From Oscillospiraceae bacterium (GTDB taxonomy: Bacteria > Bacillota_A > Clostridia > Oscillospirales > Oscillospiraceae): a DNA stretch of 6,110 nucleotides. Shown here in pieces: positions 1,120 through 6,110 of this stretch. The first letter of the stretch is position 1; every line of letters starts with the position of its first letter. Below the pieces are notes generated by a model that saw only the letters and a program-made list of their open reading frames with translations, did no database searches and was not told where the DNA came from. The DNA is taken from NCBI GenBank assembly GCA_902786615.1, contig CADADE010000055.1, positions 1 to 6,110 of the forward strand, written 5' to 3'. A program made the position numbers and the translations under genes.

Positions 1120-2931
1120 TCACCGGGAGGCCGGGTTTTCCGCCTCGTAGATCAGCTCGCCCAGGGTCTGGAACAGATGCTCCGTTTCCACCGGCTTTGT
1201 CAGGTGCGCGTTCATGCCTGCCTGCAGGGAACGCTGCACATCCTCGTCAAAGGCGTTGGCGGTCCCGTCCATCACCGGCATGCGCACATCCATCAGGATC
1301 GCGCTGTACAAACCGGGCTGACTGTTTTGAAACAGCTCCAGGGCAATCCGGCCGTTTTCCGCGTGATCTGCCTCCACATCCTCCAGGGACAGGATGTCCA
1401 TCATGATTTCGGCGTTTGCCTCCATGTCCTCTGCCAGCAGGATGCGGCGCCCTTTCAGATCCGCGCGCTTTTTCTCCTTGAACAGGCTCATATTATTCCT
1501 GCGGGCGACGCGCTCAAACTCCTCCAGGACGTTGGAGGCAAAGAGGGGCTTGGGCAGGAAGCTGTCCACAACGGTCTCGCCTGCGATCTCATCCCAGTTG
1601 TAAGCGGTCAGGATGATGATGGTCGTCTCGCTGTCAAAGTGCTCCCGGATCCGTTTTGAAGTCTCCAGCCCATCCATCCCCGGCATCTTCCAATCCACCA
1701 GCACGAGATTGTACGGCTCCTGCTTGGCATGCTGAAGCTCGAGCATCTTCAGCGCTGTCTCCCCGTCATGGCACACATCGGTGCGGATGCCGATTTCGTC
1801 CAGCACGGTCCGGGCATGTTCTGTCGCGATCCGATCGTCGTCCACGACGAGGACCTTCAGCGTGCCCGGATCGATCTCCCGATCTACGTTCATCTGCTCA
1901 CAGTTGCGCAGACTGACAATGACCGTGAACTTTGTTCCGACGCCCTTTTGGGATTCGACCTCGATCGTCCCGTTCATCATCTCCACGATGTTTTTCGTGA
2001 TCGCCATGCCCAGGCCCGTGCTGCCGTATTTGCTTTTGCGGCTGCCGTCCTCCTGGGAGAAGGGGTCGAAGATCCTGGGGATGAATTCCTTGTCCATGCC
2101 GATGCCGGTGTCCTCGATGCAGAACTTCATCGTGGACTGGTCGCCAAAGATGGCTGTCCGCTCCACCGTCATGGTGATGTGCCCGGGGGCGTCGGTAAAC
2201 TTCACGGCATTGCTGAGGATGTTGATGAGCACCTCCTTGAGCTTCATGTCATCCCCGATGTAATGGTCGTCCACCCGGCTCAGGATCCGGCATTCGTATT
2301 TCAGTCCCTTGTCGCCGCACTGGGACATGACCATGGTATTGATTTGCTCCATGATGGCGCTGAAGGAGAAGGTCTCGTTGCGCAGCACCATCCTGCCCGA
2401 CTCGATGCGGCTCATGTCCAGGATGTCGTTGATGAGGCCCAGCAGATGCTTGGCGCTCTCGCCGGTCTTGTACAGGTATTCGCGCGTCTTGGGGCACAGG
2501 GTCTCATCCTTCAGGGCAAGGCTGTTGAGACCGATGACGGCGTTCATGGGTGTGCGGATCTCATGGCTCATTCTGGACAGGAACGACGTTTTGGCGGCGT
2601 TTGCCTGTCTGGCCGCGTCCAGGGCCTCCACCAGCACCCGGCGCTGCTCCAGCGATTCGCGCATTTCCGCGTCGATCACCGTAAAGCCGATGCCCACGGC
2701 GTGGACGATGTGGTCGTCCCGGTCCGCCGGGTGGCGCACGCCCGCCATGCGGAGCATTTCGTAGTAGTCCTCGCCCTTTCGGTGAGCAAGGTAGCGGTAA
2801 GCGATGATAGACTCGGTCAGAAGGGCCTCACGGATATGATCCGGGTCGATAAACTGACGATACCCCTCCCGGTACTGCTCGTCCACGTATTTCTCCCCAT
2901 ATTCGGCAAAGCGCTCATAGAAGGGAAATTC
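1120..2931 (-). CDS. C-terminal kinase half of the hybrid kinase (HisKA, HATPase_c, two receivers), shifted frame
   Basis: Residue numbers are for the repaired protein. Homology resumes at EFPFYERFAEYGEKYV (base 2931) and completes the third sensory module. HisKA follows, with the phospho-acceptor His477 in FLSRMSHEIRTPMNAVIGL. The ATPase domain has an N box with Asn595 (NILSNAVKFTD), a G1 box with Asp628 (EDTGIGMD), an F-box region (DPFSQEDG) and a G2 box (GSTGLGMAI). Receiver 1 (~712-830) has VLVVDDD, phospho-acceptor Asp767 (VLVDWKMPGMDG), a switch Thr (ILTAY) and Lys815 (PKPL). Receiver 2 (~846-950) has LLAEDME and Asp902 (ILMDVRMPVMDG), but runs straight into TANAFDEDVQ, missing helix 3 and strand 4. 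This frame has no credible start of its own; the ATG at 3186 lies in a stretch that is unlike the family. The kinase core looks complete and catalytically competent if translated. Confidence 0.82.
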   Translation of the reverse strand, partial: EFPFYERFAEYGEKYVDEQYREGYRQFIDPDHIREALLTESIIAYRYLAHRKGEDYYEMLRMAGVRHPADRDDHIVHAVGIGFTVIDAEMRESLEQRRVLVEALDAARQANAAKTSFLSRMSHEIRTPMNAVIGLNSLALKDETLCPKTREYLYKTGESAKHLLGLINDILDMSRIESGRMVLRNETFSFSAIMEQINTMVMSQCGDKGLKYECRILSRVDDHYIGDDMKLKEVLINILSNAVKFTDAPGHITMTVERTAIFGDQSTMKFCIEDTGIGMDKEFIPRIFDPFSQEDGSRKSKYGSTGLGMAITKNIVEMMNGTIEVESQKGVGTKFTVIVSLRNCEQMNVDREIDPGTLKVLVVDDDRIATEHARTVLDEIGIRTDVCHDGETALKMLELQHAKQEPYNLVLVDWKMPGMDGLETSKRIREHFDSETTIIILTAYNWDEIAGETVVDSFLPKPLFASNVLEEFERVARRNNMSLFKEKKRADLKGRRILLAEDMEANAEIMMDILSLEDVEADHAENGRIALELFQNSQPGLYSAILMDVRMPVMDGTANAFDEDVQRSLQAGMNAHLTKPVETEHLFQTLGELIYEAENPASR

Positions 2932-3992
2932 ATGCCCTCCACATAGTGATCCGGGTCGTTCGGGTCCGACCGGTAGCAGATGGCCTCGTTGTTGTCCAGA
3001 TCGACATGGTATACGCTCCGGTAATCCGAGGCCATTGCCGTGATCATGTTGTCCAACTGCGCCCGGTGCTTTTCCTGCTCGAGCAGTTGCTCCTGCAGGG
3101 CAAGTCTCTGCTCCAGTTCCCGCTGCTGCTTGCGCTGGAGAGCCAGCTCGCGGCGCACATCCCCGTCCACGTCCTTGAAGCCGCACACGACGCCCATCTT
3201 TCCGTCGGGCATGTCCATCCGGGCAAGCTCTATGCGGAAATACTTCTCCGTCCCGTCGGGCATGACGCGCAGATAGTTTATATTGTAATGCGGGCTGTGG
3301 ATCAGCCGTTTGTTGATGTATTCCAGCGACAGCTCCCGTTCAAGCCGCGACTGATCGATTTCGGCCACCATGGTACGGATATAGTAATCCTTTGCCTCGG
3401 AATACTTCATGTCTCTGATCCTGTCGAGGCTGGAGAAACTGTACCCCGGCTCTTCGACGGCGCTGTTGCGAAAGAGAGAAAAGCTTTCCTCCTCCATATC
3501 GGTGATGAGCCACACGGAGAAATAGGACTTGCTCAGCGCTTCGATGACAGCCTGGCGCATGGCCTTGTCTGTCTCCATGCGCTCGTGCTTTTCCGTGATG
3601 TCGGAAATGAAGACGTAATAGATCCCGCCGTAGGCGTCGGTACGGGTATAGTGGCCGTAATCGTCCACCCAGCGCACAGCCCCGTCCCTGCGGATGATGC
3701 GGTACTCTGTATAGTCCATCTGCGCCTCGTCCCCGCTGACCTGCTCCTCGATGGATTTCGACACCGTCTCATAATCATCCGGGTGCAGCATGCCCTTGAA
3801 GGTGCTGCCGGTGAGCGCCCGGAACTCGTCTTCGTCTTTGCAGCCGAAGATCCCGTATACCGCGTGGTTGGCATACAGCAGCTCCCCCGGCTTTTCCGCC
3901 TTGTAAATAAAAAAGCCGCCGGGCATGTGCCTGCCGATCTCCTCGATGACGTGGAAGTTCTCACTGTTGAGCTGAAACTTTTTTCCAAACAT
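2817..3992 (-). CDS. N-terminal sensory half of the hybrid kinase (PAS domain, second sensory module, coiled coil)
   Basis: The start chosen is ATG 3990-3992 (MFGKKFQLNSENF), because AGGAG at 4001-4005 sits 8 bases before it. An upstream in-frame ATG at 4136 would add 48 low-quality residues lying over the promoter. Residues ~20-132 form a PAS domain of the PAS_3 type (MPGGFFIYKAEKPGELLYAN, GMLHPDDYETV, YRIIRRDGAVRWVDDYG, ending YYVFISDITEKHE). Residues ~140-275 are a second PAS-like sensory module (SYFSVWLITDMEEESFSLFR, ending KMGVVCGFKDVDGDV). Residues ~279-316 are a Q/E/L-rich coiled coil (LQRKQQRELEQRLALQEQLL). A third module begins with ITAMASDYRSVYHVDLDNNEAICYR. After about residue 354 the frame leaves the family and runs as unrelated residues to a stop at 2817. 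The ligand is unknown. Confidence 0.8.
   Translation of the reverse strand: MFGKKFQLNSENFHVIEEIGRHMPGGFFIYKAEKPGELLYANHAVYGIFGCKDEDEFRALTGSTFKGMLHPDDYETVSKSIEEQVSGDEAQMDYTEYRIIRRDGAVRWVDDYGHYTRTDAYGGIYYVFISDITEKHERMETDKAMRQAVIEALSKSYFSVWLITDMEEESFSLFRNSAVEEPGYSFSSLDRIRDMKYSEAKDYYIRTMVAEIDQSRLERELSLEYINKRLIHSPHYNINYLRVMPDGTEKYFRIELARMDMPDGKMGVVCGFKDVDGDVRRELALQRKQQRELEQRLALQEQLLEQEKHRAQLDNMITAMASDYRSVYHVDLDNNEAICYRSDPNDPDHYVEGMNFPSMSALPNMGRNTWTSSTGRGIVSLSTRIISVRPF
2925..2940 (-). other. Frameshift site in the sensor kinase gene
   Basis: On the coding strand the sequence GGCATGAATTTCCC reads GMNFP in the upstream frame and (H)EFPF in the downstream frame. The family-like continuation is EFPFYERFAEYG. 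One missing base, for example ATGGAA becoming ATGAA, explains the switch. No X-XXY-YYZ slippery heptamer is present in the upstream frame here, so programmed -1 frameshifting is unlikely. The exact base cannot be fixed without reads. Confidence 0.75.
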
Positions 3993-3999
3993 GTCCCGT

Positions 4000-4005
4000 T
4001 CTCCT
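4000..4005 (-). promoter_or_regulatory. Ribosome binding site of the sensor kinase gene
   Basis: The coding strand reads AGGAGA, with 8 bases from AGGAG to the ATG at 3992. This fixes the start at MFGKKF rather than at the longer upstream ATG. Confidence 0.75.
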
Positions 4006-4076
4006 CTTCTCCGTCGGCGCTGCGCACCCGTCTCGGTCCCGCCGTCATACGGGGGATCCCGCTCGCTGTCTGTTTC

Positions 4077-4096
4077 AATTGCCATTATATGCAATT
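4077..4096. repeat. Inverted repeat flanking the kinase -10 box (candidate operator)
   Basis: AATTGC at 4077-4082 and GCAATT at 4091-4096 are perfect 6-base inverted repeats separated by 8 bases. The spacer contains the complement of the TATAAT box of the kinase promoter. A protein bound here would cover the -10 box and the start point. It does not match any regulator consensus I recognise, and AT-rich chance pairing is possible. Confidence 0.4.
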
Positions 4097-4112
4097 TTTG
4101 CCGGGAAGACAA
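4084..4112 (-). promoter_or_regulatory. Sigma-70 promoter of the sensor kinase gene
   Basis: On the minus strand a -35 box TTGTCT (4107-4112, 4 of 6 to consensus) is followed by a 17-base spacer and a perfect TATAAT (4084-4089). Transcription would start near 4077, giving a leader of about 85 bases before the ATG at 3992. The promoter diverges from that of glnN. Confidence 0.7.
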
Positions 4113-4174
4113 GAGGAAAAGTCCTGCCCGATGCACAGTACCCGCGCAGCATGACGCACTGCCGCATATTGGTG

Positions 4175-4298: not shown

Positions 4299-6110
4299 AT
4301 GTTTATGAACACAGTTACCGACAGCTTTGGCAGCATGGTCTTCAATGACTCGGTCATGCGCGCGCGTCTACCCAAGGATGTGTTCCGACAGGTCCAGCGC
4401 TCCATGAACGAGGGCAAGCGCCTCGACAGCAGCGCCGCCACCGTGGTCGCCAACGCCATGAAGGACTGGGCCATCGAAAAGGGCGCGACCCACTTCACCC
4501 ACTGGTTCCAGCCCATGACCGGCATCACCGCCGAAAAGCACGACAGCTTCATCGCCCCCGTCGACGGCGGCAAGGTCATCATGGAGTTTTCCGGCAAGGA
4601 GCTCATCCAGGGCGAGCCGGACGCAAGCTCTTTCCCCTCCGGTGGCCTGCGCGCCACCTTTGAGGCCAGGGGCTACACCACCTGGGACCCCACTTCCTAC
4701 GCCTTCATTAAGGACGGGGTACTGTGCATCCCGACAGCCTTCTGCTCCTTCGGCGGCGAAGCACTGGACAAAAAGACCCCGCTGCTGCGCTCGATGGAGG
4801 CCATCGGCCGAGAGGGCCTGCGCGTATTGAAGCTCTTTGGAAACGAGGATGTCAGCTCTGTCCGCACCACCGTCGGCCCCGAGCAGGAATACTTTCTCAT
4901 CGACAAAAGCGTCTATGAAAAGCGCAAGGACCTGATCTACACGGGCCGCACCCTCTACGGCGCCCGCCCGCCCAAGGGCCAGGAGCTGGACGATCACTAC
5001 TTCGGCTCCATCAAGCCGCGCGTGCATGCCTTCATGAAAGAGCTGGACGAGGAGCTGTGGAAGCTCGGCGTCATGGCCAAGACCGAACACAACGAGGCCG
5101 CCCCCGCCCAGCACGAGCTTGCCCCCATCTACACCACCACCAACATTGCCGCCGACCACAACCAGCTCACCATGGAGCTCATGCAGCGCATCGCCAAGAA
5201 GTACGACATGGTGTGCCTGCTGCACGAAAAGCCCTTCGCGGGTGTCAACGGCTCCGGCAAGCACAACAACTGGTCCATCACCACCAACACCGGCGTCAAC
5301 GTCTTCGAGCCCGGCGAAACCCCGGCCGAGAACGCGCAGTTCCTGCTGTTTCTGTGCGCGGTGATCCAGGCGGTGGACGACTACCAGGACCTCATGCGCA
5401 TCTGTGTGGCCTCCGCGGGCAACGACCACCGCCTCGGCGCCGCCGAGGCGCCCCCGGCCATCGTGTCCATCTTCCTCGGCGACGAACTCAGCTCCATCCT
5501 CGACGCCATTGAAAAGGGTGCTCCCTACGGCGCAAGAGAAAAGGAGCTTTTCAAGGTGGGCGTTCACGTGCTGCCGAAGTTCCCCAAGGACACCACCGAC
5601 CGCAACCGCACCAGCCCCTTTGCCTTCACGGGCAACAAGTTCGAGTTCCGCATGCTGGGCTCGTCCCAGTCCATCTCCGGGCCGAACGTGGTACTCAACA
5701 CCGCCGTGGCCGAGTCCCTGCGCCAGTACGCCGACCGCCTCGAGAAAGCGGAGGATTTTGACGGAGAGCTCCACGACCTCATCCGTGAGGTCATCCGCAA
5801 GCACCGCCGCATCATCTTCAACGGCAACGGCTACGGTGAGGAGTGGACCGTGGAGGCCGCCCACCGCGGTCTGTGCAACTATCCCTCCACCCCCGACTGC
5901 ACGCCGGAATACCTGGCCCCTTTTTTTTTTAATGATACGGCGACCACCGAGATCTACACCGAGACCGAGCTTCGCGCAAGGTGCGAAATGAAGCTGGACG
6001 CCTACTGCAAGGTCATCCGCATCGAGGCGCTGACCATGCTGGATATGCTGTGGAAGGATATCCTGCCGGCGGTCTCCGCCTGCACAGGGGACCTTGCCAG
6101 GGCCGCCAAC
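4299..6110 (+). CDS. glnN: Type III glutamine synthetase, 3' partial, carrying an adapter artefact
   Basis: This enzyme makes glutamine from glutamate, ammonia and ATP in the cytoplasm. The frame is open from ATG 4299 to the window edge (604 codons). GSIII proteins are about 700 residues, so roughly 100 are missing. The N-terminal part ([41 protein letters not shown]) is typical of type III enzymes. Visible active-site elements are Glu195/Glu197 in VGPEQEYF, the NEAAPAQHE loop (Glu266, Glu273), NGSGKHNNW with His322, NDHRLG (375-380) and FEFRM (Glu449, Arg451). The end shows [10 protein letters not shown] and DILPAVSA. Residues ~541-554 ([14 protein letters not shown]) are not enzyme: they are translated from T10 plus the Illumina P5 sequence. 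They stand where relatives have a short segment before ETELRAR, of about the same length, so the frame survives. The gene is probably monocistronic up to its start, with its own promoter and attenuator, and diverges from the sensor kinase. Confidence 0.95.
5921..5959 (+). other. Illumina P5 adapter plus poly-T embedded in glnN (assembly contamination)
   Basis: Bases 5931-5959 match the full 29-base Illumina P5 flow-cell oligonucleotide exactly (it begins AATGATACGGCGACCACC and ends GATCTACAC). They are preceded by T10 (5921-5930). Read on the minus strand this is P5 read-through followed by poly-A, the usual pattern when a read runs off a short insert. The flanks are glnN on both sides, joined through short shared bases (CCC at the left, CACC at the right). 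No index or inner adapter sequence follows. It must not be annotated as protein or as a mobile element. Confidence 0.97.

Follow-up and report, generated by a model that had tools for sequence, protein, structure and literature searches.

A complete Illumina P5 surface primer, probably overprinted base for base on a type III glutamine synthetase gene

Positions 5921-5959 of the window (the whole 6,110-nucleotide stretch of DNA analysed here) are a sequencing artefact and are non-biological: they hold an exact Illumina P5 sequence preceded by ten T's, standing within the glutamine synthetase gene glnN in place of an equal number of native bases. The 39 nucleotides have the appearance of an entire P5 primer as grafted on the surface, and no library adapter adjoins them. 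Very probably they arose when a P5 primer on the flow-cell surface mis-primed within a cluster, such that the primer sequence was printed over the read and the native sequence then resumed in register. The features concerned are collected in Table 1.

Table 1. Features of the window in and around the P5 oligo.
Feature	Position	Strand	Basis
glnN (type III glutamine synthetase); frame still open where the window ends	4299..6110	+	ORF, domain profiles, protein relatives
T10, presumably the 5' spacer on the oligo grafted to the flow cell, probably overprinted on genome	5921..5930	+	Exact count of ten T's; spacer of the Illumina surface oligo
Illumina P5	5931..5959	+	0 mismatches; 0/200 shuffles
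ATCTACAC, the 3' end of P5, possibly also native; proposed mis-priming site	5952..5959	+	L231 8/8; IYT in relatives

The P5 match is exact over all 29 bases and stands directly after a run of exactly ten T's, as the initial annotation had claimed. No match with up to three mismatches occurs in any of 200 dinucleotide shuffles of the window. The base ahead of the T run is C, and genome adjoins the oligo on both sides: P5 is followed by CGAGACCGAG... (with no R1 primer site, index or Nextera/TruSeq sequence), and the oligo ends 151 nt before the window end. The Illumina surface oligo carries a 10-T spacer, and library molecules are not known to have one. The presence of the ten T's would therefore place the event on the flow cell.

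The gene in which the oligo lies is conserved and readily recognized. Its frame matches the profiles GSIII_N (268.1 bits), Gln-synt_C (72.1 bits) and Gln-synt_C-ter (107.2 bits), all above cut-off, which bears out the location within glnN given by the initial annotation; the claim of frame-neutral, adapter-derived sequence in the middle of that gene is likewise supported, as a replacement of equal length. The two tell-tale 13-residue peptides were found where they had been described, one in the glnN frame and the other in a different frame, within ORF 5404-5991. Alignment of the protein to type III glutamine synthetases, which had been proposed as a check, was made with the best 120 of 7,999 hits: in 119 of the 120, as in the window, 11 residues separate the anchors (the remaining protein, with anchors at least 60 residues apart, was dropped by the distance filter of our script), and the adapter peptide occurs in none of the 120. 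Past P5, the window protein continues in frame as its relatives do. At the position of the P5 3' end, the 119 relatives carry VYS (58), IYT (23), IYS (22), VYT (14) or VYL (2); P0002, which is 98% identical to the window GlnN across the whole query, has IYT. Two GlnN-like database proteins are unusual in themselves and are possibly assembly chimeras: P0001 (917 aa) contains a long stretch of itself repeated, and P0005 (803 aa) looks joined from two different GlnN proteins.

To measure what the oligo displaced, the left and right flanks were aligned separately to DNA relatives and the distance between them was taken. Of the 15 distinct relatives that gave both flanks, 13 have a gap of exactly 39 nt, and the remaining two have 42 and 46 nt; two of the 15 are anchored to within 15 nt on each flank, and each of these has a gap of 39. 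Thirty-nine bases were therefore replaced, not inserted, and the figure of about 40 replaced bases given earlier can be refined to 39, in agreement with the 11-residue spacing of the proteins. Because the replacement is length for length, as it also is in the 34-nt P7 cases described below, the neutrality of the reading frame is not luck, although replacement of this kind can still introduce stop codons. An insertion, a mobile element or any other gain of DNA was considered and rejected, since a gap near 0 is expected from it; a chimeric contig join was likewise rejected on the 39-nt gap in relatives. On the minus strand elsewhere in the window, the ORFs 2817-4136 (PAS) and 1120-3186 (HisKA, HATPase_c and receiver domains) overlap at 2817-3186, and they appear to be parts of a single hybrid sensor kinase that a frameshift has split, whether by genuine mutation or through a further error of assembly.

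The same 39-mer is found in at least 120 stretches of genome_contigs and in 69 stretches of viral_contigs. We classified 195 occurrences, which lie in 189 loci from the matches listed and in the window. Genome follows P5 directly in 20 occurrences, the window included (among the matches listed), and ten of these direct-junction sites were subjected to the gap test: the window, L193 (= L058), L195 (= L087), L197 (= L054), L199 (= L090), L201 (= L081), L190 (= L097), L202 (= L079), L192 (= L120) and L198 (= L069). The other ten lie outside the test (L089, L127, L129, L131, L134, L137, L146, L164, L169 and L187); relatives of L134 match on one side of the oligo, among the matches listed. Another direct-junction T10-P5 site, L191 (G003), is the second in the Marmoricola MAG that holds L079/L202. 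A megablast search of the 39-mer against E. coli complete-genome records gave no match, to which we give no weight, the sequencing method of those records not being established.

At eight of the ten tested sites, at least one relative has a gap of exactly 39. Counted over distinct relatives, the gap is 39 in 13/15 at the window, 4/4 at L193, 2/7 at L197, 6/7 at L199, 7/7 at L195, 1/4 at L201, 3/6 at L190 and 2/2 at L202; where both flanks are anchored to within 15 nt, it is 39 in all 14 relatives, which come from five sites. Besides the two values already given for the window, the gaps that differ from 39, all of them counted, are 25, 60, 76, 109 and 183 at L197, 45 (three times) at L201, 33, 33 and 36 at L190, and 38 at L199, and several non-39 gaps are accompanied by long unaligned stretches. 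At L198, four relatives have gaps of 11-20 with more than 100 nt unaligned on each side; no 39-nt replacement is shown there, and these gaps either tell against the overprinting reading or tell nothing. For L192, the relatives sought for the gap test included none that was usable.

Mis-priming by the 3' end of a primer predicts that native sequence should match that end, and such a match is found at most tested sites. We scored it at the eight sites with a 39-nt gap, using at each the relative of that gap length whose flank identities gave the largest sum. Agreement with the last eight bases of P5 is 7 at the window, 7 at L193, 8 at L197, 8 at L199, 7 at L195, 5 at L201, 3 at L190 and 7 at L202, so that six of the eight sites match 7-8 bases. 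When the majority string of the gap-39 relatives is used instead, the values become 6, 7, 8, 7, 7, 5, 4 and 7 in the same order of sites, and five sites, not six, reach 7. As background, 7 or more of the 8 bases are matched by 0.032% of 25,137 8-mers from the same loci. Averaged over the eight sites, agreement rises along the oligo from 0.15 in the ten T's to 0.41 in the next 21 bases and 0.81 in the last 8; in L237, a relative of L197, the native run extends to 14 nt.

At the window the native bases themselves are masked, and the scores of 7/8 (highest-identity gap-39 relative) and 6/8 (majority of relatives) stand within a range of 1-8. The relative L231 has the same last eight P5 bases, ATCTACAC, at the corresponding place, and the other DNA relatives agree at 1-7 of the 8. 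Since P0002 keeps IYT there and L231 matches at all eight bases, ATCTACAC may well be the native sequence at 5952-5959, in which case about 31 of the 39 bases may be foreign. The octamer occurs three times in the window (P5's own copy included), against 0.07 expected in shuffles. Its two further exact copies, at 4935-4942 and 5127-5134, also lie in glnN, both encode I-Y-T, and neither is overprinted, which indicates that an 8-nt match is insufficient and that match length alone is not decisive.

A flow-cell primer as the cause predicts like behaviour of the partner oligo, the 34-nt T10-P7. It is present in at least 120 stretches of viral_contigs, and among 136 occurrences in the loci examined, four are internal and join genome directly (L260, L265, L286 and L302, among the matches listed). 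For L260, L265 and L302, the search for relatives matched the oligo itself only, among the matches listed. L286 is Klebsiella phage Marfa (MN044033, L402), whose record is in both GenBank and RefSeq (NC_048798). Phage EI (MN106245, L403) has the 34-nt oligo at the same place, over the portal gene, and in the three fetched relatives without the oligo (L404-L406) the gap measures exactly 34 nt, with 12-13 consecutive native bases identical to the 3' end of P7. Over the oligo stretch, the GenBank record of Marfa annotates no portal gene, EI has the gene split in two, and L404-L406 each have a single one. Marfa and EI, both with CPT locus tags, may share one centre. Megablast with the 34-nt oligo gave no match in phages, where such sites do exist, and it is uninformative, because masking of the T run leaves 24 bases, fewer than the 28-base word (P5 alone has 29). 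For the P7 site of Proteus phage Saba (L411), the relatives found besides itself were one-sided only. A different arrangement is seen in Paenibacillus phage Pd_22F (MZ092003, L408), where a complete record has, in its middle, P5 and P7 with Nextera sequence, facing apart around poly-C/G runs.

Sister records of a Vibrio phage allow the oligo to be compared with nearly identical sequence. A search with phage D173 (L415) returned 52 records, of which the 20 listed comprise 16 of 52,228 bp, two of 52,283 bp and two of 49,854 bp. We compared ten stretches of 1,051 bases (from the L415 and L417-L426 records), taking 219E44-1 as the reference. D68, 219E44-1, 252P2 and 219E41.2 are identical over the 1,051 bases and lack the oligo; the other six (D173, D57 g1, D198, D59, D65 and D194) carry it. 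These six differ from the reference at 13-15 positions within the 34-nt footprint and, outside it, at one position in all six together (in D173, 3 nt ahead of the footprint). Of the 15 bases at the 3' end of P7, 14 are shared by the native sequence, and long native 3' matches are found at each of the two P7 sites tested, in the Klebsiella and the Vibrio phages. The full T10-P7 is present in D173, D57 g1 and D198, and in the remaining carriers (D59, D65 and D194) either or both of the two leading T positions carry the native base; a graded return of this kind, in register at the T end, at which the truncated strand would run out, is what a fading mixed signal predicts. The oligo-bearing records may stem from one sequencing effort.

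From what is observed (the identity of the oligo, the equal-length replacement, the 3' match at most tested sites, the likeness of P7 and the partial native return at the T end), we infer what happened within the cluster, which read was affected and how the strand types were proportioned, as follows. A surface-bound 5'-T10-P5-3' oligo would anneal through its 3' end to a chance match, ATCTACAC, in a library insert and be extended, giving truncated T10-P5-genomic strands beside the full-length strands of one cluster. In Read 2, the two types of strand would agree up to the match; the truncated strands would then give the complement of P5 and ten A's, and end. Beyond their end, the signal would come from the full-length strands alone, and hence the native sequence would return exactly in register. 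The resulting read would carry the oligo over an equal length of genome, and the assembler would take it as a continuous path. By strand geometry, the overprint would be expected in Read 2 for P5 and in Read 1 for P7.

The best-surviving alternative, which we nevertheless regard as unlikely, keeps the same mis-priming and assigns the equal-length replacement to assembly or polishing: truncated reads with the complement of P5 and ten A's at their end, placed gap-free along the native path, would win the consensus. The equal length, the 3' match and the frame neutrality are explained equally well in this way, and the partial native return in three of the Vibrio phage stretches could be a mixed read consensus. 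What may speak against it is that some of the tested P5 loci have contig names of de Bruijn type (k87_, NODE_), and de Bruijn assemblers need reads that span both junctions.

Overprinting of the read itself by the surface primer has also to be set against the usual read-through of library adapters, or a chimera of two contigs joined through poly-T/adapter, which is very improbable for the window even though ordinary read-through is the source of most of the fetched T10-P5 cases. Among the matches listed, the 195 occurrences were classed as 127 with the R1 primer site, 40 with index plus Nextera, one TruSeq-like and 27 other, so that an R1 site or an index with Nextera/TruSeq sequence adjoins P5 in 168; by eye, seven of the 27 are also R1 primer sites with an error (L001, L047, L056, L123, L151, L152 and L185). 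These cases resemble the contig-end contamination described in the available part of PMC11536531. The occurrence lies within 250 nt of the end of the stored sequence in 182 of the 195, one of which is the window; as the loci are cut, such an end need not be that of a contig. However, no library adapter follows P5 in the window, whose direct-junction kind is a minority, and a chance join would not leave the relatives of several unrelated sites with gaps of exactly 39 nt. Roughly 100 of the 120 genome_contigs loci (L001-L120, judged by eye among the matches listed) come from MAGs of DRR093003, DRR093004, DRR093005 and ERR712384, which points to heavy adapter read-through in a few studies. That the organism, or a strain, truly has the 39 bases in its DNA is hardly credible at all: the ORF does stay open, but the sequence is an exact synthetic oligo, the same 39-mer recurs in unrelated bacterial, viral and phage records, and none of the 120 relative proteins (best 120 of 7,999) has its peptide.

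Taking overprinting by a flow-cell primer as the preferred reading, we lean towards regarding it as a distinct, sequence-directed class of Illumina error, in which the surface primer would be written, length for length, over 39 (P5) or 34 (P7) genomic bases at sites of 3' match. Strong matches would be hit repeatedly across separate depositions, as in the Klebsiella and Vibrio phage records, and the error would be open to screening, its sites being predictable from a reference.

Contamination of microbial genome databases by Illumina adapters is already known; the in-register form seen here is possibly new. Moeller et al. 2024 (PMC11536531), in the part of the paper available, describe such contamination as concentrated at contig ends, screen for the 12-base AGATCGGAAGAG and its reverse complement, and trim contig ends. 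As in the cases described there, the window has an Illumina-derived oligo left in an assembled contig, present despite trimming; unlike them, as far as that part of the paper goes, its 39 bases lack AGATCGGAAGAG, abut genome directly at either end and stand in for the same length of sequence. In one case, submission screening has also taken adapters out of the middle of contigs, which were then split (PMC10749331, from the available part, which gives no mechanism). Adapters within contigs are thus a recognized occurrence, and the adapter is mid-contig in both situations, but splitting treats it as a join, whereas the flanks in the window are contiguous genome with 39 bases masked. The 10-T design of P5/P7 surface primers is in print (PMC11123353): the immobilized bridge-amplification primers there, a laboratory design, begin in the available text with the same 5' T10 ahead of P5 or P7 sequence, and their 3' ends are shorter than those of the oligos here. 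A limited search of the open-access literature (titles and the starts of abstracts) gave no description of in-register overprinting among the matches listed, and the adapter peptide strings and the full 39-mer were absent from the open-access literature searched.

As the replacement is neutral in length, the frame is unshifted and contig-end trimming is no remedy, so the artefact can stay unseen. An overprint of this kind can pass checks of frame and contiguity and sit unnoticed in reference genomes, and where stops arise it may spoil annotation. If the sites do follow 3' matches to P5 and P7, databases could be screened with two short patterns, and overprints could then be told apart from contig-end adapters; the appropriate treatment would be to mask them in place rather than to split or trim the contig. 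For the source organism, the consequence is that 39 bases of glnN are masked (of which about 31 would be foreign, should the last eight be native), and that a conserved enzyme is given a false peptide.
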